Of a stretch of 24,184 nucleotides of DNA, positions 10,475 through 24,184 are shown in pieces (the first letter of the stretch is position 1; each line of letters opens with the position of its first letter). Below the pieces are notes generated by a model, which did not search any database, was not told the DNA's origin, and worked only from the letters and a program-made list of their open reading frames with translations. The position numbers and the translations under genes were made by a program. This DNA comes from a virus. The stretch is from positions 1-24,184 of the IMG/VR virus record IMGVR_UViG_3300020445_000073. The stretch is one strand, 5' to 3'.

Positions 10475-13400
10475 CTATTTCGAGCGAACAATTGCTTGAT
10501 ACTCGATTCTCTTAATTCTGTACGTTGCTCCACCGTTACCAACTACCTTCTCACCACCCATAATTGCGTATGCTTTTGCACCCGCACCAGTGGTATCTCC
10601 AGCAGCATTAGTAAACGTCACCGTTGGGTGAAGATTGTAAGAACCATCGATAGTTTGTGGAATTCCATATCCACCATTAGTAATTGTTATAGAAGAAACT
10701 TGGTCACCAGCAGCAGTTAAGACTGCTGTACCTGTTGCTTGTATATCACCAGTACTTTCAATAGCTATTACTGGTGCTGCTGTATAGTTAGTTCCAGCAT
10801 CCTGTATATAAAAATCAACTACACTTGAGTCGTGAGAGAATTCATATAGATAACCTGCAATACCAACATTAATATTGCCAGTATTGAATGGAATAACATC
10901 CTTTAATGTTAGAACTGATGTTACTGGATTCCAAGAAACACATGTTCCTCTAACTCCAGATATATCACCAGTAATAATTTCATCAACACTAAAGTTTTGA
11001 CCATTGCCAACATTAGCATCAAGATAGAGATCTATAAGAGCAGTATGCTCTACACCTTCACTCAATCCACCTGCTGTAGATACTTGAGCATATTTGAATG
11101 GAATACTAGCATCCTTAATATTATCACCAACTTGGAATAAAGTAGTATTCTGTCCACCTAATGTTTCTTCAATACCATATAATGAATTGTATATACCACC
11201 TTCTAAACTAATTTGATTTTCAAATTCAGTACTAGTATTTACCAAGTCAGGTATACCATCTCCTGCACCAGAGTTTTCATCATCATCTTCAAACGCCTTA
11301 TCAGTTAAAGTTCCTATAGGTACTGTTAATGTTGTAATATTACTTCCAACTGCAGTAAGAACAACATGTGGTAGTTGTGCTGAAGCAGAACTAGCAGCAA
11401 CACCAGCATCAAACTGAACGATAGCATCTTCAGTAGAAGGAATACCACCATCAATAAATGCCAATTCATCAATCTCAAATGTTACTAGAAGTGCTCTAGT
11501 TGCAGGATCCCAGTCATATACTTTAGCAACCTTGTTAGTAGAACTTTCAACCTTTCTAATAACTCTGTCACCAACATTAAATTGGTATGTTGAATTACCT
11601 TGAGCATCATTCTGTCCTGTGTCAAGAATAATTCTCTGATCATAGTTAAAGTTTACACCCCTTGTCAAACCAGTAAACTTACCTGCTGTTTTAGAAGTAT
11701 ATGTAATAGTTTCTGTATTCAGAATAATCTGTCCAGAACCAGGATATGCATCTGTAGAGTCAACATATATGTTCCCTTCACTAGCAGTGAGATCCTTAAC
11801 TAATCCAGTAAGATATATTGGAGAAGCATTTAATGATTGTCTTGCTCTAGTCTTACGTTTAAGATTAACTAGTTTTGTAAAGATAATTGTAGGTGCGGAA
11901 GTATACCCTCTACCTGGTTCTGTAACAGTAATCCCAGTAATAGAACCTTGAGCAACTTGAGCAGTTGCTTTTGCACCAATACCACCTCCACCAGTAATTA
12001 AAATGTAAGGAGGTTCTTGATAATATTCACCAGTATCTACAACAGCAATAGAAGTAACTCTACCAAGAGTATCAATTGCTGCAGCACCTTGAGCACCTTG
12101 TCCACCACCACCTTCAAAGATTAGTGTCGGAGGAGTAGCATATTGTCTACCTGGATTACTTAAAGATAAACCAGTGATAGTTTGAACAATAGGAGACCCT
12201 AAAGCACCAGTACCTTGACCACCTAAAATTCTTGCAGTAGCAGGACCAAAGTAATTATCACCAAAAGATGTCATCTTAACATAAGAAATCTGTCCTGGAT
12301 TATCTGCACTTAAAACGACATTTCCTTCTGCACCTTCTGGGAAATTACTGACTAAAGTAGGAACTACTGTTCCTTCAAAAATAGGAGTACCAAAGAATTG
12401 AGGACCAATAACATAAGGGAATACAGGAACACCAGCAGCAGTTTGAGTCATAAAATATGCATAAGTTCCATTAGGATATTCTGGAGTTACAGCAAACTTA
12501 CCATTATGAGCATCAAGACTACCTACAACACCAACATACTTCCAATTACTTGTAGTACCACTAGTATGAGTAGGTTGTGATCCACCACTATTAATAGCAG
12601 CAGTTGCTTCATATATTACATTAGAAGAATTTCTAACAGTTTCATATATTGCATATGCAGTTGAACCACTCCAAGTAGGAGAATCATCCCAAATATAATC
12701 ATCTACTAAATCTCCAAGAGCATATCCATCAACAACACATCTAACTCCATGATCTGCAGTCGTATATGCAAACGTATAAAGTGCTATGGGTGAATCTACA
12801 GGAACAGTAATTCTAGTTTCTCTCTGTGCTGCACCATTAAATGAACTTAAATAAGTGGTATAAGTGACTTCTGAACCATTAATATAATACTTAATTCCAT
12901 TACCATCATAAATTTTTGATGTGTCACCAATTACAACAGGACTTGTACCATGCCAACCATCTTCTTGCGTAGAAATTAAAAGTTGTTGACTCGTATTACT
13001 TGCATCATTTTGTTGGAAAACATATGTAGATCCTCTTTCCAATTCTAAAAATGCAGGAGTAGATCCACCAAATAAGAATTTTCCATTAGAAACTGTTACA
13101 GCATATGTCACAGTTGCTGGAGTTACTACATCAGGTCTAGCACCTGCTAATTCTAAAGCAGTCTTATATCTAAATCCAGAGGTTTCTAAAACAGCACTTC
13201 CACCAGCATTATATCCATAAGGTCCATAAATTGGATAACCATCATAAGACATACCAAGAATCTTGGAATGACCATTAACATGTCTTCCATAATCTATAGT
13301 AGCAGGATCATTTGCATCACTCTGATAGAAATCAGTAACATAATAATCATTAGTTAATGGGTCATTATCAATCGTAGAATCAAAACTAATATAACCTTCA

Positions 13401-14797
13401 TCTCCAGCATACCCAGACATATATCTGTGATACTTACAATAATAATAAATGTTATTACTCTCATCCGCATTCATTATGAATAACGGTTGGAATTCATTTT
13501 CATAATCTGTAGATGGTGCATCTGTTACACCAGTACTATTATAATAAAGAGCACCACCATTCAATAAACCATCAGCAGTTGTACTAAACTGCATAGGATG
13601 TCCATTAGGATGAGTACCAGTTACACCATTAGTACTATCTGACTGATTCCAAATAATTAAATAATTTCTTTGAACCTTAATATCTTGTGGTGCAAAATAA
13701 TAAGTTCCAGGAACAAAAGCACCAAACTCTGCAGCATCTGTACCAAAATCAATATAGAAAATACCATGAACAAGTAATACAGGATCCTGACTTACAGTAA
13801 AACCAAATCCATTTGATCCTAAAAACTTATCATCCTTTGAAAAACTTCCTGTAGTTTTTCTTAAGTAAATCCTTGTAATAGCACCAGTATTATCTTTAAC
13901 TATTCTTGTAACTTCTCCTTTACCAGTACCAGATATTTCATCTACAAGTCTTCCTACTTCAACATTACCTAATGTTTGATCAACACTAGTAACTGGTAAC
14001 ATTACATTGTCAAATTCTACCTTTATATTCCAAGTAAACTGTCTGATTTTACCCCAATCAAATACACCATTTTGTGCATCCCATTCATTAAGAAGTCTAC
14101 TTGATTGATAATAATAAGCACCACCTTCTACTACGGCATCTGTTGTATTATTAGATTTTACATAATTATGTTTTACAGTATCAATAGAAAATCCTGGATG
14201 AGGATTGCCATCAGTTCCCCATTCTGGAGTGTGTAGCAAACCACCGTTTGCCATAATACCAGTAACTTTATCTGGTTGTGCTACCCTTGTAGTAGGATGA
14301 GGAACTTCCTTACCACCTCGGTATATAAATTGTTGATTAAAAGTTCTATCAGTTAATGGACCACCACCAGGAACTCTTTCTGTATCAATAACAGTTGGTT
14401 TAGGATCATTATCAGATACTATAGTAAGTCTATCAGTTGTACCGTCAAAAGAACCGCTAGTTGGAGAATTGGGATGTGATTGCCATATTTTATTAATATC
14501 AAATGAATTAACTACATTAGGAGTTTCCTGTGAAGGAGTAATCTGAAGACGAAGAGGATCATAACCTTTACCTCTATTCAGAACACGAACATGAGTTATC
14601 CTCCCTGAATCAGTATCAATTATTGGATATAATAATGCTTCCGATTCTGGGGTTCCACAACCATTAATAGTCAACCTTGGCGGGTCAGCAGGATCATATC
14701 CTGTACCACCATTTGTTACTTCTACCGCACGAACGCCAAAGGTATCATCAAATATTGGTTCAATAACGGCACCAGAGCCAGGAACAGTTCTTGCCAT
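10475..14797 (-). CDS. Mosaic virion protein with YHYH-type and cupredoxin-like domains, 1440 aa
   Basis: Domains in order. Residues 24-90: two GxGY beta units. Residues 150-260: region with Trp/His/Tyr-rich segments. Residues 340-472: cupredoxin-like, with H400, C454, H457 and M460 in type 1 copper order (YYYCKYHRYM). Residues 486-557: first part of a YHYH-type domain (GHSKILGMSYDGYPIYGPYG). Residues 560-700: a cupredoxin-like copy lacking metal ligands. Residues 711-756: chitin-binding-like unit. Residues 758-803: the rest of the YHYH-type domain (NGKFAVTPEYPNGTYAYF, PVFPYVIGP). Residues 840-975: three GxGY/GGGG beta units. Residues 995-1055: SAIS/IYVDST-type module. Residues 1266-1400: GExITG and further GxGY units. 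It follows the 408-residue gene by five bases, probably on one transcript. It sits just before gp8, where T4 has gene 7, but I see no similarity to T4 gp7. A tail-surface or baseplate-peripheral protein is inferred. Confidence 0.88.
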   Translation of the reverse strand: MARTVPGSGAVIEPIFDDTFGVRAVEVTNGGTGYDPADPPRLTINGCGTPESEALLYPIIDTDSGRITHVRVLNRGKGYDPLRLQITPSQETPNVVNSFDINKIWQSHPNSPTSGSFDGTTDRLTIVSDNDPKPTVIDTERVPGGGPLTDRTFNQQFIYRGGKEVPHPTTRVAQPDKVTGIMANGGLLHTPEWGTDGNPHPGFSIDTVKHNYVKSNNTTDAVVEGGAYYYQSSRLLNEWDAQNGVFDWGKIRQFTWNIKVEFDNVMLPVTSVDQTLGNVEVGRLVDEISGTGKGEVTRIVKDNTGAITRIYLRKTTGSFSKDDKFLGSNGFGFTVSQDPVLLVHGIFYIDFGTDAAEFGAFVPGTYYFAPQDIKVQRNYLIIWNQSDSTNGVTGTHPNGHPMQFSTTADGLLNGGALYYNSTGVTDAPSTDYENEFQPLFIMNADESNNIYYYCKYHRYMSGYAGDEGYISFDSTIDNDPLTNDYYVTDFYQSDANDPATIDYGRHVNGHSKILGMSYDGYPIYGPYGYNAGGSAVLETSGFRYKTALELAGARPDVVTPATVTYAVTVSNGKFLFGGSTPAFLELERGSTYVFQQNDASNTSQQLLISTQEDGWHGTSPVVIGDTSKIYDGNGIKYYINGSEVTYTTYLSSFNGAAQRETRITVPVDSPIALYTFAYTTADHGVRCVVDGYALGDLVDDYIWDDSPTWSGSTAYAIYETVRNSSNVIYEATAAINSGGSQPTHTSGTTSNWKYVGVVGSLDAHNGKFAVTPEYPNGTYAYFMTQTAAGVPVFPYVIGPQFFGTPIFEGTVVPTLVSNFPEGAEGNVVLSADNPGQISYVKMTSFGDNYFGPATARILGGQGTGALGSPIVQTITGLSLSNPGRQYATPPTLIFEGGGGQGAQGAAAIDTLGRVTSIAVVDTGEYYQEPPYILITGGGGIGAKATAQVAQGSITGITVTEPGRGYTSAPTIIFTKLVNLKRKTRARQSLNASPIYLTGLVKDLTASEGNIYVDSTDAYPGSGQIILNTETITYTSKTAGKFTGLTRGVNFNYDQRIILDTGQNDAQGNSTYQFNVGDRVIRKVESSTNKVAKVYDWDPATRALLVTFEIDELAFIDGGIPSTEDAIVQFDAGVAASSASAQLPHVVLTAVGSNITTLTVPIGTLTDKAFEDDDENSGAGDGIPDLVNTSTEFENQISLEGGIYNSLYGIEETLGGQNTTLFQVGDNIKDASIPFKYAQVSTAGGLSEGVEHTALIDLYLDANVGNGQNFSVDEIITGDISGVRGTCVSWNPVTSVLTLKDVIPFNTGNINVGIAGYLYEFSHDSSVVDFYIQDAGTNYTAAPVIAIESTGDIQATGTAVLTAAGDQVSSITITNGGYGIPQTIDGSYNLHPTVTFTNAAGDTTGAGAKAYAIMGGEKVVGNGGATYRIKRIEYQAIVRSK
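11633..11815 (-). other. Second copy of the SxxxIxVxDa beta module (1440-aa protein)
   Basis: Residues 995-1055 read LTGLVKDLTASEGNIYVDST, then GQIILNTETITYTS and a LTRGVNFNYD turn. The layout matches the unit at 2605-2835 in the DUF4815 protein (TSAISNSDTSIAVND, MQIGTETISYS, ERGVDG). The shared 'xIxTETIxYxS' core is the best-preserved part. Confidence 0.5.
12527..12685 (-). other. Chitin-binding-like module nested in the YHYH-type region
   Basis: Residues 705-757 (PTWSGSTAYAIYETVRNSSN, VIYEATAAINSGGSQPTHTS, then NWKYVG) resemble a CBM5/12-type carbohydrate-binding unit and align with residues 287-334 of the tail fibre. It lies directly before GSLDAHNGKF, where the YHYH-type sequence resumes, and so forms the second half of an insertion. 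Sugar binding is inferred only. Confidence 0.5.
12698..13120 (-). other. Degenerate cupredoxin-like domain lacking copper ligands
   Basis: Residues 560-700 align by eye with the cupredoxin-like end of the 408-residue protein: LERGSTYVFQQND with HRGFTYAFDN, QQLLIST with FRIQST, and TVPVDSPIALY with TVPMDAPTTLY. At the four positions that hold His, Cys, His and Met there, this copy has S603, A677, T680 and H683. It cannot form a standard type 1 copper site. It interrupts the YHYH-type domain. Confidence 0.6.
13382..13780 (-). other. Cupredoxin-like domain with amicyanin-type ligand spacing (1440-aa protein)
   Basis: Residues 340-472 include H400 (GHPMQFS) and the loop C454-K-Y-H457-R-Y-M460 after a YYY strand, followed by a GYISF strand. 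The order His...Cys-x2-His-x2-Met matches type 1 copper sites, and the loop length matches amicyanin. It leads straight into the YHYH-type domain. Whether copper is bound is not shown by sequence alone. Confidence 0.6.
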
Positions 14798-14802
14798 TTA
14801 TA

Positions 14803-16029
14803 TTAAGTTACTACGTTGATTTGCCCTTGCATTGCTGCATGGAGTGTACACTGATAATAAAGGGTTGTTGGAGCGTCCATAGGAACAGTCCAATACAATA
14901 CAGTAGTACCACTACCACTTTGTCCTGTTGTATAAGGAGTACCAGTCAAACCTTGAGTAGACTGAATCCTGAATGGATGAGCACCACCCTGAACAGTATT
15001 ATCAAATGCATAAGTGAACCCTCTATGTACATAAAGAGTTGGATCAGCAGTTGCAGAAGCAAATCCAGGACCATTCACCGTATAAGATGAAGCACCATCT
15101 GCATTTATTTCCCACCAAGTAATTGGACTACTTACTGGAACCCAATTAGTTCCATTATAAAAGAGTGAATCTCCTTGAGTAATGCCAGCAACATCAGTAT
15201 CTGTTAAAGCAGCAAGTGTTGTTACCAAAGTACCAGAGAAATTAACCGTTACAGTATCTCCAGAAACTGCTGTAGTGATATTAGTTCCACCAGCAATAGT
15301 TAATGTATCTGACTGACTATCTGCTGTTGTAGATCCTGTATCACCAGCAACTGTAGCAAACAAACTAATAGAAGCAATACCAGAATCATCATCTGCTGGT
15401 AACCATTTACTACTAGTAGAATTCCATTTTAAAACTTGATTATTAGTAGGAGCAGCAGTTGTAGTATCAACGTCTGCTAAAATATCAACACTAGAATATT
15501 GTGTTGCAACTTTTGCTCTAACATCACCAGCACCACCAGCAGTGATATTAATGTTTACATATGGATTATCATCACCATCTACTGTAAAGAAATATCCTGT
15601 ATACGTTGCAGCCGCAGGAGCAGCAGCAAGTGAAGCAAATTCGTTCTTATACTTTACTTTTGTTGGTAAATCTATTGTTCCGTCACTACCTTCAAATGTA
15701 CTAGTAACACCACCATTAGAAATAGTTACATCTCCAGTTCCGTTAGGAGCAATTACTATATTGCCATTAGATGTTGAAAGAATAGTATTACCATTAACAT
15801 CTAATGCTGATGTTAATTGACTATAATCAGATGGTGCAAATGACGAACCATTATATCTTAAAACTTGTCCAGTAGCAGGGTTGGTAACATTAACAGTTAA
15901 TGTCGTACCATTACCTATGGCAGTATATAATTCAGTAAAATTGTCATTAATTTTATCGCCACCACCTCGCAGAGTATCCCCCGTGTTGTCGTTAGCAGAC
16001 GTACCTAAATTTAGAGCCTGTTTTGCCAT
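14803..16029 (-). CDS. Fibre-like virion protein with C-terminal cupredoxin-like domain, 408 aa
   Basis: The N-terminus (LNLGTSANDNTGDTLRGGGD, then KINDNFTELYTAIGNGT, residues 6-42) is a recurrent start of phage tail-fibre and adhesin-like proteins. The middle is Thr/Ser/Gly/Ala-rich beta sequence with three copies of a short motif: VLRYNGSSFAP (56-66), VLKWNSTSSKWLP (199-211) and LFYNGTNWVP (289-298). Residues 305-408 form a cupredoxin-like domain: HRGFTYAFDN, H351 in GGAHPFRIQST, then TVPMDAPTTLYYQC394TLH397AAM400QGQI at the very end. The order and spacing match type 1 copper ligands of amicyanin. No signal peptide or membrane segment is present, as expected for a virion protein. A late promoter lies 20 bases upstream and the 1440-residue gene follows after five bases. 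No strong Shine-Dalgarno is visible. A tail-surface role is inferred; copper binding is untested. Confidence 0.88.
   Translation of the reverse strand: MAKQALNLGTSANDNTGDTLRGGGDKINDNFTELYTAIGNGTTLTVNVTNPATGQVLRYNGSSFAPSDYSQLTSALDVNGNTILSTSNGNIVIAPNGTGDVTISNGGVTSTFEGSDGTIDLPTKVKYKNEFASLAAAPAAATYTGYFFTVDGDDNPYVNINITAGGAGDVRAKVATQYSSVDILADVDTTTAAPTNNQVLKWNSTSSKWLPADDDSGIASISLFATVAGDTGSTTADSQSDTLTIAGGTNITTAVSGDTVTVNFSGTLVTTLAALTDTDVAGITQGDSLFYNGTNWVPVSSPITWWEINADGASSYTVNGPGFASATADPTLYVHRGFTYAFDNTVQGGAHPFRIQSTQGLTGTPYTTGQSGSGTTVLYWTVPMDAPTTLYYQCTLHAAMQGQINVVT
14806..15132 (-). other. Cupredoxin-like domain with complete type 1 copper ligand set (408-aa protein)
   Basis: Residues 300-408 contain H351, C394, H397 and M400; the codons were checked at 14977-14979 (His351) and 14848-14850 (Cys394). 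Amicyanin uses His53, Cys92, His95 and Met98 with the loop CTPHPFM; here the loop is CTLHAAM with the same C-x2-H-x2-M spacing, a similar His-to-Cys distance (43 versus 39) and a following QGQINV strand. The domain forms the protein's C-terminus. Confidence 0.65.
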
Positions 16030-16060: not shown

Positions 16061-19000
16061 TTAGTTAGGTGGAACTTCCTCTTCCCCATATAGACTTAAG
16101 TCAGGGGCAGTCCAATCATCAGGAACTGATGTCTCAACAGCAACAGATGGATTTTCATATCCTGTTCCTGCGGCACTCATTTCCACACCAGCAACACCGA
16201 CTAGTGCGTTAATAACGCCTTCAAATCCAGATATAGAGTCAATCCTTACAGTTGGTCTGCTAGTGTATCCAGATCCACCAGAGGTTACCTGTACGGTATT
16301 AATGAATCCAGAAGTAATCGCTGCTTGACCTTTAGCATCTTTACCGAATACAGATCCAAGATAATCAAATGTAATCAAGGAGTTGGAAGATTCGATAACA
16401 GCAACTTCTCTGTCTGAAGTCTCACCTTGGATGTCAATAAAGTCACCTGGTTCGACTGGAGGTACAACTTCAGCAGCGTCAACGTCTGCTTCAGAACCAA
16501 CGTAGGAGAATCCAACAAATGTTGATCCTACACGAGGAACTTCAGAGAAGATTATACGTGAACCAACCAGTTCAAAACCAACGCCTGGTTCCTGAATAAC
16601 ACCATTGAGTGAAACGATGATATTATTTTCTGGTCTAATTGTTGAAGATTGAACACCATCAGTAAGCGTTAGTGAGTAGAATACGTCATTACGCTTAAGG
16701 TTGAAGGACTGACGTAAGGAGTCAAACTCGAATGATATATCATCCAATTGTCTCATCTTACCTACGTAGAATCCTGTGAATGATGCACCCAAATCTGGTG
16801 CTTCAGTAAACTGAATCTGGTTAGAGAACGCTGTATATGCGTTAGTACCGCCTGGAGGTTGTAATATACCATTAACGAATACCATCAAGTGTCCTGCAGG
16901 ATCTGGTAAGTAAGAAGTACCATTATCAATTGTTAATGGGAACGTAGTTGTGGTTCCATCAAATCCTTTAAATGCACGTTTTACTCTTGCTTTTAATACT
17001 TGCTTGGAAATAACTGCAGATTTATATCCATCAGGTCCAATAATTCCATCTTTAAGATCAAATACTCCAGCAATGCCAGAAAGGAATAGTCTTTGATTAA
17101 CACCAACTGTCTTAATATCTTGAACAGTTGCTGCAGCAGCACCAGTAGTAGCAACTATTGTAGTAATCTGACCATATCCTACAGGATATTGAGTAAGATT
17201 ATAGTCACCAACTAAATCACCTTGAGTGAATGAACCTTGATATTCTATACAATAAACATAGTTGTTATCAAGATCTACATCAGTAATAATTGCGTATGTA
17301 TTAGGATCTTCAGAATTGGTATTATTGATATTACCTGTAACCTTATACAGTTTATTACCAACGGTAAAGCTGTTAAGACCACTTAATACAACGATTCCAA
17401 ATCTCTTATATCCAGCAGATGCAATTCTATCACCAACACCAACATCAAGACCTGCATACTTACTTACTTCAAGATACTGTCTAGATGCAGAAGGATATAC
17501 AACAGAAGTTGTCTCAAATGCACCAAGAAGTGATTCAGTATCAACTGTTAACTTACCACCTGTATTATCAAGTATAGATGCTTCAGTCTTTAAGAATCCT
17601 GTAGGAGTTGCGGTAGCACCACTCTTATATCCCTTGAATGGGATATTATCATTGAAAGTACCCTTGAGATCAATGACATGGATGCGACTTTCAATTGCAC
17701 TAATTTGAGCAGTTGTTGAGTTTGCAGCACCAAGAATGGTATCTGTAACCGCCCATGTACCACCAGTGATCTTAACATCTAGGTACTTATAGTTTTCATC
17801 AAAATGATATCCATAAACAACACCAGTCTTTGATCCATCACCTTGCTTCTGAACTACCTCATTCATAGTGAATGGACCGTCAGTTATATCACCATCAATT
17901 CTAAATCTCTGATAAACTTGAACAACTTCACCTTCATTAACAGTAATAGATTCTAATTCAGCATATTCATTACTTTGTAGACCATATATGAAGTCAGCAG
18001 GTTTTAATCCACCACCAACACCAGCAGGTATTGTTCTAGCACCATAAGTCTTGGATGGAACTGATATTCCATTTGCAACTGTAAGATTAGTATAATAACT
18101 ATCAAGTGCTAACTGCTTACGAATAATATCTAAACAGTTACGAACGACTCTAGTATATGGTTTAACAGTATAGTATGCAGCAGATGCAACATCATAATAC
18201 TTGTAGAATCCAGAATTAGGAGCAGGAGAAGTTAAACCATCTTCAAGTGCTTGTGTAATGTAAGTCTGTAATAAATCTAGAGCATATATCTTAATATTAT
18301 ACTCATTATCAGCATAGAAAATCTTACCATCATTAGATGTATATGGATCTAAAGTACCTCTAGTAAGTTTAGCACCCCATACATATAATCCATCACTACC
18401 ATTACCAGTATAAGATAGAGAACCACCTGCATTCTTAACAAATATTTGTGGTCTTAATTGAGAGAAACCATAAGAGAATGTACCAGTTAGATATACTCTA
18501 TACCATCCATCTCCATAAGGAATAGCACCAAATGCATTGGTAGTAATACCATTTCCTGAATTAAAGATAGACCCGCTAGTTCCATCATTCAAATTAAGAT
18601 CAAAGAATGCTTCCTGAACACCAGCAGTACCTAAATCTAGACCGATTTGGAAACGTACATAACTGTATTCACCTTTCTTGATGAATGTTGAATATGTAAA
18701 TTGCTGTGTATTATCTTCTAGACTTATAGCACCAGTGTCAAATGTTTCACCAGTAGAGTCAAATTTAACACCATCAGTATCAAACGTTTCATAAGCACTT
18801 AAGTTAAAGTTTCTGTATATTATGTGCTCACCAGCAACTGCAGTAGATGCTAGTTTTTCAGCAGTAAGAGTTCCATCAGGTGCAGTAAATGCATCATCAA
18901 GAATTAGTGATTCTGTACCAGTCCAATCAGGAGTAAAGTTTTCTGAATTAGTAAAGAGGTTAGCACCAGATACTTGACCCATAATGTTAGAAATTATATT

Positions 19001-22000
19001 TCTTGCATTAGCAAGTGTTCTAACATTTCCTGGAGCAGTAAACCAATCATAACCAAATGCAATACCATTAGCATCGATATTTGCTCTTGCATTAGAAGTC
19101 TGACCAACTAAATCATCTCCACCTCTCCATGCAGTTCCTGTAACAGGACCACATACAAAGAAATTAGTTTCATCATTAAATTCTAATACTGTTGCATATC
19201 CACCACCACTAGAATTAACTTGCTCACCAGCAACAAAGTTGCCAACTACAGTATTAACTGAAATCTCATATCCTGTAGTTTTATTACTAACATCAGTTGT
19301 CATAGCATCATGACAGATGTCAAGAATAATCTGATCTATGAAAGTATTATAAGTCCAAGATCCAGAACCAAATTGTGCATTAACGATTGTCTGAATTTCT
19401 TCTTTATAGTAGTTCTTATTGTAGAAGAGATTTGTGGCAGCACCTCTAGCAGATTTAGTTCCAGGTGAAAGAATACCAAGTGCAATATCAACTAAATCTT
19501 CCAATCTCTTAACTACATTAGCAATAGCAGTTGGAGATTCAGTATCTCTATATGCAGTTCTCATACTATGTTGTAATTGATATTGATCACCAGTTACAGG
19601 TTCACTATTTGAATATAATTTATTTTCTAGTGCAGACTTACCTAAAGTCTTAATTTGCTCTATAGCATATAGTGTTGCTAATAACTCATTTTCAACTTGA
19701 TCAATTTGCTTATTTGCATCAAGATATTTTTCTATAGCATCAATAGTACTAAATGTACCACTAGTCTGTAAATCAGAAATAATACCCAACATAATCAACT
19801 TAAGGTCTCTCTGACATGTACCTTCACCAGTTGCTTGCCCACCAGTAGAAGGATATGAGAAGAGAGTGTAATTTGCTGAATTTAATGTGATTGTAAAGTT
19901 AGAAGTTACAAGACCAGTGATTTCTTCTGCAAGAGTTGCTCTATTGAAATATAATCTATCAGCACCAATAGCAAAATCATTATCAGTAGGAATAATGATG
20001 CTATTAACACCATCAACTAAAGTATCGATAGCAGTCTTAACATTTGCACATCCACCACCATCTTGAGTGATATCCCAATCACCAAATATAATCTTATCAG
20101 TATTAGTGCTGTCAAGATCACCAGTAACTGCTTGCTTCATGTAGTGAGCAAGACGATTGTGGGCATAAATTGACTGGAATACTTGTAATCTAACATGTAG
20201 AAGAACATTATCAGTTCCAAGATAGAATTGGGCAACATTAGTTGTATAGAAGTTACCACCATCTTCTAAATCCTTACAGAATTCTTCAAGAATTAAAGAA
20301 AGGTCAGTCTTACACTGCAACGTACCTGCATCACTACCACCTACGTTTCTAGGCATTTCAGTATTAAGATCTGGATACCTGGTAAGCATATCGTAAGATG
20401 CTTTATCTACAATAGGACCAGCATTCTGACGAATTATGTTAGCAGCATCACGGTATCTGTACTGTGTATCTTCATCAATTTGATTAGTATAGATAAGATC
20501 ATTTGCAGCATCATGATAAGAAACTGGGAATGGAACTTCTCGATATGCACCAACTTTACCACCAAGGAATGAATAAGCAGGTGAACGTTTTACAAGAGTG
20601 CCAAGATGATCTATAGGAGTAGGTAAATTAGCACTAGTTAATGTATCTGTAAGAATATTAATTAAGTTTTCACAACTTGTTTGTACATCTGTGCAATCTT
20701 CAGCACTCTGATAATTCAGAACAACAACTCCATTAGATGCTGCAGTAACATAAGTGTGTTGTCTAAGAACTCTCTTAACAGCACCAGGATTAGCACTTAT
20801 GAATGTATGTGTTTCTTGTGGTTTATATTGTACACAGTTAGAAACAGCACTTACAAATGTGTGTGCATAATCACCACCACTACTTACAACTGCTCTCTTA
20901 ATAGCATTTGCAGCAATAGCAGTACAAGTATGTGCAAATACATTAGTTGAAGGAATATTATCTAAAACTTGAACATCAAATGTATTTGTAGCAACGTTAG
21001 AAATTACCAACCATTTCTTACTTACAGGATCAGTTGCTCTTGGATACTTATGAGTAGTAGCATTACTGTCTAGACCACAAGTAAAGGATAGAGATTCATC
21101 TGCAATTTGAATATGTTCACCATTAATGAATCCATGTCCATTCATAGTGAAGGTTATTATACCTGTTGTAGGATTGTAAGTTAGAGATGATGGTGTATAT
21201 GTGTTATTAGCATTCTGGAAAGTATGTGCAGTAGTGTTAGAAGATGTTCCAACATTTACAGTAATAGTGTTACCTGTTACTGCAGTAATAGCAACAGCAT
21301 CGTTGTATGCTGGATCATCAGCAGATGCACCGCCCTGACCATTTGCACGAGGGTATGTCTTATCTCCAGCACCAGCACCACACTGATACACTAATGAATT
21401 ATTTGCAATTCTTATACTTGTACCAACAGTAAGACTATGATTACCGATAGTTAAAGTTAGAACACCCGAAGAAGGATTGTATGTAGAACCAGTAACGTCA
21501 AATCCCTTAATTGGAGATTTACCAACGTTAACTGTAATTACACCACTCTGTTTACGAAGACCTTTGGTAGTTGCAGATTTGAATATATGTGCAGAAGTAT
21601 CAGGAGAAATGCCTACATTAACTTCAAAAGTATTAGTTGCAACGTTAGAAACAATTAACCATCTTCCACTTGGATAATCAGTTGAACGAGGATATGCATG
21701 ATCAGTAGTATTACCATCTAGTGCACATCTCATTGTAAGAGATTCATCAACTATCTGAACATAATCACCATTAGAGAATCCATGAGAGGTAATTGTAAAC
21801 TGCATAACGCCTGTAGCAGGTGTATATGCTGCACCTTCTACTGTATGATGTGTATGTCCTACATGTGTAATAGGAATAGACTTAAGACCACCATAAGGGT
21901 CAGTTGCACGAGGATAATCCTTATTAGAAGATCCTCCATCCATTGTACAATTGAATTTCAATCCACTATTTGCAATAGTGATATTTGATCCAACACGAAT

Positions 22001-24184
22001 ACCATGTTGACCAATAGTCAATGTCATATCTCCAGTCTCTGCATCATAAGTTGCTGCAGAAGGAGTGAACTGTGCATTTGCAGAAGCAGCACCAACATTA
22101 ACTGTAATAGTTCTATCTGCGTCAGCAACACCCTGTCCTGAAGTTACTGCAGTAATATCAAGTACTCTATTAGAAGCACGTGTATCATGATTTGGACGTG
22201 GATATGTCTTGGTAGATTGATTGTTATCCATTGTACATGTGAATGCCAAGGAATTATCATCAATAGTAACTTTATCAGCAGGAGTTAATTCATGACCAGG
22301 AATCTTCAGAACCATATTTCCATTTGAAGGATCATATGTAACTTCAGTTGGAGTATATGGAGTATTAACAAGATTAGCAAGAGACTTACCAACATTTACT
22401 GTAAATGTATTAGCATCATACTTGTAAACTTTCAATGCAGAATTATAAGCAGGATCAGTCTTACGAGGATATGTGTGATTAGTAGAATCTCCATCCATAT
22501 CACAAGTGAATGTTAATGCATTTTCATTAAGTTTAATAGCAATACCTTCCTTATGGATAGCATTTGCTACAGCAGATCTAAAGGTATGAGTGTAATTACC
22601 ACCTGTCATAACAACACCTCTAGTAATACCACCAGTACTTGCAGATACAAATGTATGAGCATCAGTATTTGTGGAAGGTGTATTTGCTAGAACTTGAATA
22701 TCAAATGTATTTGTAGCAACGTTAGAAACAGTAATCCACTTACCACTTACAGGATCACTTGGTCTTGGATAAGATTTCTGTGCAGCAGCACCTGAAGCAC
22801 CACCAAATGCACAACTGAATGTTAATGAATTATCAGCAAGTTTAACAACATCACCATTCTCCATTCCATGACCATTAGATGTAATAGTCATTACACCTGT
22901 AGTTGGGTTATATGCAGCAGTTGATGCTGTTAAGTTAGTTGTAGGAACAAATGTATGTGAATAAGTACCACCAGCAACAATTGCATTAGATTTTGCTCTT
23001 ACAAATGCATGTGTAGTAGTGTTAGAAGATGTTCCAACATCTATAGTAATTGTTCCGTCTTGAACCTTAATATTGTTAGATGATGTACCACCATTATAGG
23101 TGTGTGCATTGTTACCAAAGTCAGTCTTTCCAACAAATATATCAAAAGTATTAGTCTGACTATTTGTAATAGGAATGAATCTCTCACTAACTGGATCAGT
23201 AGCACGAGGATATGTCTTGGTAGCATTACCACCATCAAAAGTACATGTGAATGATAGTGAATCAGCAACCAATCTCACAGAAGAATTTGCTTTCTTAAGT
23301 CCACTTGCAACAGAAGATATGTAAACATGCTGACTTAAATCTGTGGACTTACTTACATTAATATCAAATGTATTTGTAGTTACTCCAGAGATTGTCAACC
23401 ACTTATCAGAAACTGGATCAGTAGCACGAGGGTAGGTATGATCTGTAGCATAGTTATCCTTGGCACATCTGAATTTCAGCATGTTAGCATCAAGTCTAAC
23501 CCTATCACCATTATTCCATCCATGAGATGCAATTGTTAGTGTTAGTTTTCCTGTTAATGGAGTATATGCAGCATCTGTTACTGTATGAGAAGTTGCTCCA
23601 GTCAATCCATGACCATTACTGGTAAGTGTTAAAATACCTGTAGTAGGTGTATAAGTTGCCCCAGTTGTAGACTTATTAGTTGTACCAGCAGTAATAGAAA
23701 CCGCAGTATCATATGAACTATCTCGTTTCTGACTTATAGCATTAGTTACACCAGATACAAATGTATGAACATGAGTGTTAGAAGATGTTGTACCTTGTAA
23801 TACATCTACTGTAAATGTGGTTGTATTAGTTACAGTTGCCTGAATCCATCTTCCGCTAACTGGGTCTGTTGAACGAGGATAATCATGATTAGTAGATCCA
23901 CCATCTAGTGCACAGGTAAAGCGAAGTGCATTGTCTGCAAACTTAATCCAGTCACCAGACTGCATTCCATGAACAGAAGAAGTGACAATAGTTAAGACAC
24001 CTGTTTGAGGATTATATGCTGTACCAGTGGTTGCAGTATGAGTATCAATAGTAGTTCTTGGATATGAGTGCTCTGATACATCACTATCTTGATCACAAGT
24101 GAATGTGAATGCCTCATTCTGAATCTTAACGGTATCACCATCTGTTAGATCATGTGTACCAACTGTCAAGACCATATTTCCATT
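16061..24184 (-). CDS. Giant repeat-containing tail/adhesin-like virion protein (5' end cut by window edge), >2707 aa
   Basis: The frame is open to the right edge, and the first Met in the window (24175) is internal: NGNMVL falls inside a repeat, as in SNGNMVLKIPGH further on. Visible parts in order: eleven repeats of about 105 residues, each with a FxC strand and a YPR turn (to about residue 1153); a helical Cys-containing region (about 1154-1640); beta segments with a GExVxSSGG unit; a lectin/CenC-like module (NLFTNSENFTPDW ... GDGWYRVYLTG ... LYVWGAKLTRG ... DPYTS, about 1735-1945); two copies of a VNGxxQxPG ... GxxFxGFxxVG unit (about 2430-2470 and 2517-2560); and C-terminal GxGY units ending in an acidic EEEVPPN tail. 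This composition fits a long host-contact or tail-decorating protein. No catalytic motif was recognised. A late promoter for the next gene lies right after its stop. Confidence 0.88.
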   Translation of the reverse strand, partial: NGNMVLTVGTHDLTDGDTVKIQNEAFTFTCDQDSDVSEHSYPRTTIDTHTATTGTAYNPQTGVLTIVTSSVHGMQSGDWIKFADNALRFTCALDGGSTNHDYPRSTDPVSGRWIQATVTNTTTFTVDVLQGTTSSNTHVHTFVSGVTNAISQKRDSSYDTAVSITAGTTNKSTTGATYTPTTGILTLTSNGHGLTGATSHTVTDAAYTPLTGKLTLTIASHGWNNGDRVRLDANMLKFRCAKDNYATDHTYPRATDPVSDKWLTISGVTTNTFDINVSKSTDLSQHVYISSVASGLKKANSSVRLVADSLSFTCTFDGGNATKTYPRATDPVSERFIPITNSQTNTFDIFVGKTDFGNNAHTYNGGTSSNNIKVQDGTITIDVGTSSNTTTHAFVRAKSNAIVAGGTYSHTFVPTTNLTASTAAYNPTTGVMTITSNGHGMENGDVVKLADNSLTFSCAFGGASGAAAQKSYPRPSDPVSGKWITVSNVATNTFDIQVLANTPSTNTDAHTFVSASTGGITRGVVMTGGNYTHTFRSAVANAIHKEGIAIKLNENALTFTCDMDGDSTNHTYPRKTDPAYNSALKVYKYDANTFTVNVGKSLANLVNTPYTPTEVTYDPSNGNMVLKIPGHELTPADKVTIDDNSLAFTCTMDNNQSTKTYPRPNHDTRASNRVLDITAVTSGQGVADADRTITVNVGAASANAQFTPSAATYDAETGDMTLTIGQHGIRVGSNITIANSGLKFNCTMDGGSSNKDYPRATDPYGGLKSIPITHVGHTHHTVEGAAYTPATGVMQFTITSHGFSNGDYVQIVDESLTMRCALDGNTTDHAYPRSTDYPSGRWLIVSNVATNTFEVNVGISPDTSAHIFKSATTKGLRKQSGVITVNVGKSPIKGFDVTGSTYNPSSGVLTLTIGNHSLTVGTSIRIANNSLVYQCGAGAGDKTYPRANGQGGASADDPAYNDAVAITAVTGNTITVNVGTSSNTTAHTFQNANNTYTPSSLTYNPTTGIITFTMNGHGFINGEHIQIADESLSFTCGLDSNATTHKYPRATDPVSKKWLVISNVATNTFDVQVLDNIPSTNVFAHTCTAIAANAIKRAVVSSGGDYAHTFVSAVSNCVQYKPQETHTFISANPGAVKRVLRQHTYVTAASNGVVVLNYQSAEDCTDVQTSCENLINILTDTLTSANLPTPIDHLGTLVKRSPAYSFLGGKVGAYREVPFPVSYHDAANDLIYTNQIDEDTQYRYRDAANIIRQNAGPIVDKASYDMLTRYPDLNTEMPRNVGGSDAGTLQCKTDLSLILEEFCKDLEDGGNFYTTNVAQFYLGTDNVLLHVRLQVFQSIYAHNRLAHYMKQAVTGDLDSTNTDKIIFGDWDITQDGGGCANVKTAIDTLVDGVNSIIIPTDNDFAIGADRLYFNRATLAEEITGLVTSNFTITLNSANYTLFSYPSTGGQATGEGTCQRDLKLIMLGIISDLQTSGTFSTIDAIEKYLDANKQIDQVENELLATLYAIEQIKTLGKSALENKLYSNSEPVTGDQYQLQHSMRTAYRDTESPTAIANVVKRLEDLVDIALGILSPGTKSARGAATNLFYNKNYYKEEIQTIVNAQFGSGSWTYNTFIDQIILDICHDAMTTDVSNKTTGYEISVNTVVGNFVAGEQVNSSGGGYATVLEFNDETNFFVCGPVTGTAWRGGDDLVGQTSNARANIDANGIAFGYDWFTAPGNVRTLANARNIISNIMGQVSGANLFTNSENFTPDWTGTESLILDDAFTAPDGTLTAEKLASTAVAGEHIIYRNFNLSAYETFDTDGVKFDSTGETFDTGAISLEDNTQQFTYSTFIKKGEYSYVRFQIGLDLGTAGVQEAFFDLNLNDGTSGSIFNSGNGITTNAFGAIPYGDGWYRVYLTGTFSYGFSQLRPQIFVKNAGGSLSYTGNGSDGLYVWGAKLTRGTLDPYTSNDGKIFYADNEYNIKIYALDLLQTYITQALEDGLTSPAPNSGFYKYYDVASAAYYTVKPYTRVVRNCLDIIRKQLALDSYYTNLTVANGISVPSKTYGARTIPAGVGGGLKPADFIYGLQSNEYAELESITVNEGEVVQVYQRFRIDGDITDGPFTMNEVVQKQGDGSKTGVVYGYHFDENYKYLDVKITGGTWAVTDTILGAANSTTAQISAIESRIHVIDLKGTFNDNIPFKGYKSGATATPTGFLKTEASILDNTGGKLTVDTESLLGAFETTSVVYPSASRQYLEVSKYAGLDVGVGDRIASAGYKRFGIVVLSGLNSFTVGNKLYKVTGNINNTNSEDPNTYAIITDVDLDNNYVYCIEYQGSFTQGDLVGDYNLTQYPVGYGQITTIVATTGAAAATVQDIKTVGVNQRLFLSGIAGVFDLKDGIIGPDGYKSAVISKQVLKARVKRAFKGFDGTTTTFPLTIDNGTSYLPDPAGHLMVFVNGILQPPGGTNAYTAFSNQIQFTEAPDLGASFTGFYVGKMRQLDDISFEFDSLRQSFNLKRNDVFYSLTLTDGVQSSTIRPENNIIVSLNGVIQEPGVGFELVGSRIIFSEVPRVGSTFVGFSYVGSEADVDAAEVVPPVEPGDFIDIQGETSDREVAVIESSNSLITFDYLGSVFGKDAKGQAAITSGFINTVQVTSGGSGYTSRPTVRIDSISGFEGVINALVGVAGVEMSAAGTGYENPSVAVETSVPDDWTAPDLSLYGEEEVPPN
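18335..18970 (-). other. Lectin/CenC-like carbohydrate-binding-type module
   Basis: About residues 1735-1945 of the giant protein follow a pattern common in phage spikes and fibres: NLFTNSENFTPDW, APDGTLTAEKLAS, FTYSTFIKKGEYSYVRFQIG, GDGWYRVYLTGTFSYG, then LYVWGAKLTRGTLDPYTS. In such proteins the fold is a beta sandwich like carbohydrate-binding modules. The ligand is unknown. Confidence 0.65.
19255..20714 (-). other. Helical region with repeated Cys-xx-DL motifs in the giant protein
   Basis: About residues 1154-1640 are mostly helical, unlike the rest of the protein. Two segments resemble each other: LQCKTDLSLILEEFCKDLED with FYTTNVAQFYL, and GTCQRDLKLIMLGIISDLQT with FSTIDAIEKYL. Further short related starts are EDCTDVQTSCENLINILTD, GGGCANVKTAIDTLVDGV and VRNCLDIIRKQL (the last lies further downstream). 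I do not know a named family for this. Confidence 0.5.
20715..24184 (-). repeat. Eleven diverged ~105-aa Cys/YPR repeats (protein-level) in the giant gene
   Basis: Each unit has a strand pair (AxYxPxTGxLTLTxxxHGxxxGD), an 'IADNSLxFxC' strand with one Cys, a D-G/N-rich turn, a [HK]xYPR motif, usually TDPVSxxW, then TNTFDIxVG and a HTFVSA-type tail. I count eleven YPR motifs and eleven matching Cys. The array continues past the right edge. Copies are diverged at DNA level, so this is an old duplication array and not a recent tandem repeat. Confidence 0.85.

Follow-up and report, generated by a model that had tools for sequence, protein, structure and literature searches.

A predicted cupredoxin domain with a type-1-like ligand set in the cyanophage baseplate protein gp9 and in other marine phage tail proteins

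The C-terminal domain of a tail protein encoded in the 24,184-base virus sequence analysed here (the whole record, referred to as the window) almost certainly has a cupredoxin fold, as judged from structure prediction, and the evidence supports a complete mononuclear type-1-like predicted copper site formed by His351, Cys394, His397, and Met400. The domain is homologous to blue copper proteins and recurs in many virion proteins. We consider it probable that it represents a copper-binding, type-1-like site in the fibre-docking or host-contact part of the tail. The first-pass annotation had proposed an amicyanin-type copper site at this C-terminus, a reading that our analysis supports as largely right for the site predicted from sequence and model, but too narrow. 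The features of the gene are the following:

14803 to 16029, minus strand: gp9 of T4-like cyanophages, which connects baseplate wedge and tail fibre (408 amino acids, phrog_677)
15610 to 16023, minus strand: N-terminal T4 gp9/gp10-like baseplate-anchoring domain, amino acids 3 to 140 (Pfam PF07880)
14806 to 15126, minus strand: C-terminal domain, amino acids 302 to 408, assigned as cupredoxin by AlphaFold2, Foldseek against the PDB, PDB profiles, and hhalign
14977 to 14979, minus strand: H351, predicted to be the first copper ligand and part of the motif HPFRI (93% in 61 copies, invariant in 69)
14848 to 14850, minus strand: C394, predicted to supply the thiolate ligand of the copper (invariant in 69 aligned copies)
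14839 to 14841, minus strand: H397, second predicted histidine ligand (97% in 61 copies, invariant in 69)
14830 to 14832, minus strand: M400, predicted axial methionine ligand (95% in 61 copies, invariant in 69)

The 408-amino-acid open reading frame is identified by its sequence as cyanophage gp9. The family phrog_677 ("baseplate wedge tail fiber protein connector") spans amino acids 1 to 407 with an E-value of 2.4e-198, and gp9 of Prochlorococcus phage P-SSM4 shares 77% identity over the full length. The Pfam domain T4_gp9_10_N (PF07880) covers amino acids 3 to 140 (E 2e-11), and a phmmer search of gp9 against the PDB matched T4 gp10 (2fl8, 6e-06) and T4 gp9 (1pdp, 5e-04) in the N-terminal region. 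The neighbouring genes agree with this identity. Downstream are a protein of 1440 amino acids that matches phrog_708 ("baseplate wedge subunit") and contains a YHYH domain, a gp8-like protein of 510 amino acids (phrog_438), and more virion proteins; upstream lies a virion structural protein of 2704 amino acids. The earlier description as a phage fibre-like protein thus holds as far as a tail protein is concerned, and is made more precise as the connector between baseplate wedge and tail fibre. In comparison with T4 gp9, the N-terminal region is homologous, and annotation and gene neighbourhood are the same, whereas the C-terminal domain had no T4 gp9 match in the phmmer search against the PDB. 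The cupredoxin stands where T4 gp9 has its own fibre-binding C-terminal domain.

Two repeats were seen in this part of the window. A short motif occurs twice in gp9, as VLRYNGSSFAP at amino acid 56 (15832-15864) and as SLFYNGTNWVP at amino acid 288 (15136-15168), the second copy immediately preceding the cupredoxin domain. In the 2704-amino-acid virion protein (16061-24175), a unit with a conserved cysteine and a YPR motif is repeated about ten times (C...YPR at amino acids 25, 86, 235, 309, 453, 556, 645, 741, 930, and 1031). This protein starts 9 bases from the end of the record and may be truncated.

The translation of the open reading frame places H351, C394, H397, and M400 where the first-pass annotation had them, the last three within the loop CTLHAAM (Cys-x2-His-x2-Met). 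The domain was modelled with AlphaFold2 from amino acids 296 to 408 of gp9 together with 69 aligned sequences (pLDDT 94, pTM 0.86). In the model, a strand at amino acids 389 to 394 ends in the cysteine, the loop with histidine and methionine follows, and the last strand covers amino acids 401 to 407, which is the strand-loop-strand layout expected from the first reading; H351 directly precedes a strand at amino acids 353 to 356. In shuffles of the C-terminal 109 residues of gp9, the pattern H-x(30-60)-C-x2-H-x2-M arose in 28 of 200,000 cases. A chance origin of the pattern is disfavoured, decisively because the ligand columns are conserved in 69 diverse copies of the domain.

A Greek-key cupredoxin fold, as had been anticipated, was borne out by comparison of the model with known structures, the top Foldseek matches in the PDB all being cupredoxins. 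The best was a three-domain copper nitrite reductase (8e-5), with rusticyanin at 1.6e-4; the 12 matches with E < 1e-3 were rusticyanins or three-domain nitrite reductases, and amicyanin (1.7e-3), AcoP, pseudoazurin, and laccases came next in rank. The similarity is moderate (TM ~0.5, rmsd 4.5-6 Å), so that the gp9 domain is best described as a divergent cupredoxin whose sandwich departs from the known ones, and this distance counts against the copper-site reading. The relationship emerges with profiles, single-sequence searches being weak: phmmer of the single domain sequence against the PDB gave only sub-threshold or chance matches, as did the Pfam search of the whole gp9 for the C-terminal domain. 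In an hmmsearch of the PDB, a profile built without the gp9 of this record matched nitrite reductase (1e-6), plastocyanin (1e-5), rusticyanin (8e-5), and amicyanin (2e-4), and all 60 of the 60 chains listed were blue copper, copper nitrite reductase, CuA, or other cupredoxin proteins. A larger family profile again matched blue copper proteins, and its alignment to plastocyanin put the His, Cys, His, and Met of plastocyanin on the four conserved columns. With hhalign, the domain family matched bacterial cupredoxins collected for comparison with a probability of 97% and an E-value of 6e-11, the ligand columns being aligned. None of the Pfam and NCBIfam models reached its cut-off for the domain of this gp9. 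The Pfam model At5g54830 gave a weak match (0.002-0.014), the PDB profiles being clearer; PF00127 (plastocyanin/azurin) had no match in the gp9 of this record, and weak ones in 6 of 20 relatives (best E 0.0011).

Among the known cupredoxins, amicyanin (TIGR02657; PDB 1sf3, 1aac) has the same ligand order and the same Cys-x2-His-x2-Met spacing (profile 2e-4, fold 1.7e-3), but its first ligand lies in an HN motif instead of HP, and it is a periplasmic electron carrier, whereas the gp9 domain is part of a virion protein. The term amicyanin-type is therefore appropriate for the loop spacing but not for the family, since gp9 scores 13.6 bits against the TIGR02657 equivalog cut-off of 110.2. Rusticyanin and three-domain copper nitrite reductase (1rcy, 2dv6, 6tfd) rank first by fold (E 8e-5 to 6e-4; rusticyanin profile 8e-5), but they have longer ligand loops and 16-25% identity, and they are enzymes or soluble carriers, not structural proteins. 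Plastocyanin shares the fold and the four aligned ligands. Cyanophages carry petE, the plastocyanin gene, as a separate gene (PMC3037559), which is in line with the distinction drawn in the first-pass annotation between a stand-alone, host-derived electron carrier and a domain fused to a structural protein; the gp9 domain also has the shorter loop. Direct recruitment of petE was considered and is unsupported, as neither the profile nor the Foldseek comparisons placed plastocyanin clearly nearer to the domain than rusticyanin, nitrite reductase, or amicyanin.

Plastocyanin, azurin, and amicyanin have an asparagine after the first histidine, and laccases have His-Pro at the type-1 site. With proline after H351, the hydrogen bond from the backbone NH to the cysteine, usual in His-Asn sites, would be missing. 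The expected lack of one typical hydrogen bond is another point against a copper site in gp9.

The four residues do not vary freely among marine phage homologues. Among 69 diverse copies of the domain, with identities down to about 24%, only H351, Y392, C394, H397, and M400 are invariant. Conservation was quantified in 61 cysteine-bearing copies filtered at 60% identity, in which C394 was present in 100% (by selection), H397 in 97%, M400 in 95%, and H351 in 93%, with a median column of 36%. The proline after the first histidine was found in 92% of this set, and the top conserved positions of the family were the four ligands together with Y392 and P352. All four ligands are kept in 311 of 357 unique copies. 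Most of the other copies have lost several or all of them, so that loss is mostly concerted; a few copies have an incomplete or changed set (HSAM or YCYY, for example), and some gaps stem from truncated contigs.

Further copies of the domain were detected in the protein encoded directly downstream of gp9:

10475 to 14797, minus strand: baseplate/virion protein of 1440 amino acids with a YHYH domain and two cupredoxin-like copies (phrog_708, Pfam YHYH)
13388 to 13735, minus strand: second cupredoxin-like copy, amino acids 355 to 470 (profile match E 7e-7)
12728 to 13105, minus strand: third, ligand-less cupredoxin-like copy, amino acids 565 to 690 (family HMM, alignment)

The protein matches phrog_708 ("baseplate wedge subunit") with an E-value of 0 and Pfam YHYH with 1e-14. 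The ligands of the second copy are H400, C454, H457, and M460 (GHPM...CKYHRYM); in 46 homologues, the two histidines and the cysteine are invariant and the methionine is found in at least 90%. The third copy, matched by the family HMM at amino acids 571 to 674, lacks all four ligands and is flanked on either side by a conserved half of the YHYH region. The AlphaFold2 model of amino acids 335 to 810 was too uncertain overall (pLDDT 68, pTM 0.36), for which reason the assignment of these copies rests on sequence; laccase matches of this poor model in Foldseek were discounted (TM about 0.16). YHYH-domain tail proteins are predicted metal-dependent hydrolases (PMC7824862). The YHYH domain adjoins cupredoxin copies in the 1440-amino-acid protein but is a separate domain and is absent from gp9. 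Within 12398-13360 (amino acids 480 to 800), it is split by the ligand-less copy; its namesake motif appears to be TYAYFMT, so that this protein and its relatives seem to lack the YHYH histidines.

The ligand-less copy implies that copper is not needed for the fold as such, which argues against the copper-site reading and for a metal-free beta-sandwich interaction module, in which the four residues would be kept for packing or assembly. Many beta-sandwiches serve as spacers in virion proteins. However, the four separated type-1 residues rank with the most conserved columns of the family, even though identity is below 35% for many copies, and loss of the cysteine is usually accompanied by loss of other ligands. 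Near-absolute conservation and concerted loss are expected of a metal site and are hard to square with packing alone. A metal-free module is thus rather improbable, and the gp9 domain quite probably binds metal in the virion. The site might hold a metal other than copper, for example zinc, as a structural center: Cys/His/Met sites can accept zinc, which is also easier to obtain in the cytoplasm. An axial methionine, however, is what copper sites typically have and structural zinc sites seldom do, and the relatives with solved structures that were listed are all copper proteins. We regard a non-copper metal as very unlikely and copper as the likely occupant of the gp9 site.

The domain is not a one-off fusion. 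That it is joined to a structural protein was read correctly at first, but it belongs to a domain family found in many marine phage tail proteins. A tblastn search with the domain retrieved 350 phage records, mostly of Synechococcus and Prochlorococcus phages. In the podovirus P-GSP1, the domain is located in a protein encoded beside a tail fibre gene, in S-SKS1 in one large protein, in S-H9-1 in a protein annotated as subtilisin-like protease, and in the pelagiphage Baldr in a tail fibre; P-SSM5, P-TIM68, and MED4-213 also encode proteins with the domain. Long tail fibre proximal subunits in a viral structure library match its fold, too. In environmental viral contigs, one query yielded 368 relatives, and a second query yielded at least 587. 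Tandem copies occur in several viral open reading frames (L252, L243, L242, L248, L237, and L256), with five copies in 11 open reading frames of the set; some of the tandem copies have altered ligands (Tyr-Cys-Tyr-Tyr or His-Ser-Ala-Met). In the same structure library, the fold is also matched by four "beta-sandwich proteins" of giant viruses (A0A481YWX9, A0A481Z6J5, A0A481YY19, and A0A481Z7Q7), which come from metagenome genomes of Marseillevirus and Pithovirus.

A possible recent host origin was addressed in a narrow search with one conserved pattern across 84,980 prokaryote species genomes, which returned seven loci. Two of them, L100 and L102, encode gp9 and its neighbours and are clearly of phage origin, and two (L098 and L099) are probably phage contigs; all four are filed under bacterial MAGs. 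The MAG labels of these phage-like contigs are Planctomycetota, Gammaproteobacteria, Rickettsiales, and Rhodopirellula. The remaining three (L101:3014-6046, L103:3560-4288, and L104:1269-2138) encode apparently genuine bacterial proteins of Bacteroidetes/Actinomycetota with all ligands, which are possibly exported.

On the copper-site reading, the T4 gp9/gp10-like N-terminus would anchor a gp9 trimer on the baseplate rim, by analogy with T4, and the cupredoxin domain would be exposed at the distal end, the place at which the long tail fibre docks on gp9 in T4. Each domain would hold one Cu(I)/Cu(II), amounting to up to 18 per virion if six trimers are present as in T4. A further point against this reading is that T4-like phages are assembled in the cytoplasm, which offers little copper. 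Because free cytoplasmic copper is negligible, loading is proposed to occur most likely after lysis, or from host copper freed at lysis. The metal would lock the short Cys-His-Met loop and the adjacent surface at this end of the sandwich, and the resulting rigid, possibly redox-poised surface would contact the fibre or the host envelope. Photosynthetic electron transport is not part of the proposed role.

A structural or contact role is somewhat favoured over redox catalysis. A redox switch or electron carrier, in which Cu(I)/Cu(II) chemistry in the baseplate would serve to sense the host envelope or to detoxify oxidants as infection proceeds, would agree with the complete His-Cys-His-Met set, which belongs to the electron-transfer type of the fold, and with the tandem domains in some virion open reading frames. 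It appears improbable nonetheless: no partner oxidoreductase is visible within the 24,184 bases, a fixed virion protein would be a poor diffusing carrier, and hosts ranging from cyanobacteria to SAR11 count against a photosynthetic partner. Iron-carrying HxH tail fibres have been proposed as host-recognition devices in marine phages (PMC11705849), and a copper "Ferrojan horse" would work likewise, the tail metal being recognized by, or coordinating, a host surface component and thus aiding adsorption. In both cases, a protein-bound transition metal is proposed in the tail of marine phages, and the domain is found in host-contact proteins, namely gp9, long tail fibre proximal subunits, other tail fibres, and the pelagiphage tail fibre. 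The HxH sites of T4 gp37 and marine phages (PMC11705849), however, are octahedral histidine sites in intertwined fibres, whereas the gp9 domain is globular and of the blue-copper type with a cysteine thiolate. In type-1 sites, the metal is usually buried and bound tightly, in contrast to the exposed iron sites, no receptor is known, and gp9 is normally a connector and not the receptor-binding tip. Copper-mediated host contact of this kind is accordingly given a low probability.

The fold and the ligand set of the gp9 domain are known; what appears to be new is the occurrence of type-1-like cupredoxins as virion tail domains. In the open-licence literature, we found no description of a cupredoxin or blue copper domain in phage tail proteins, which is weak evidence of absence. 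The recurrence of the domain in marine virus tail proteins may mean that phage tails carry copper. It is conceivable, though put forward tentatively, that marine tailed phages possess widespread, so far undescribed copper-loaded blue-copper domains in baseplates and tail fibres, which serve fibre attachment or host recognition and constitute an unrecognized pool of copper ligands in seawater. If copper is bound, the tails of very common ocean viruses would hold redox-capable metal centers, a novelty in virion biology. Copper binding would also provide a testable link between copper chemistry and infection by cyanophages or pelagiphages, widen the idea of metals on phage tails to include copper besides iron, and account for a domain that is labelled only as part of gp9 or as "hypothetical protein" in hundreds of phage genomes.
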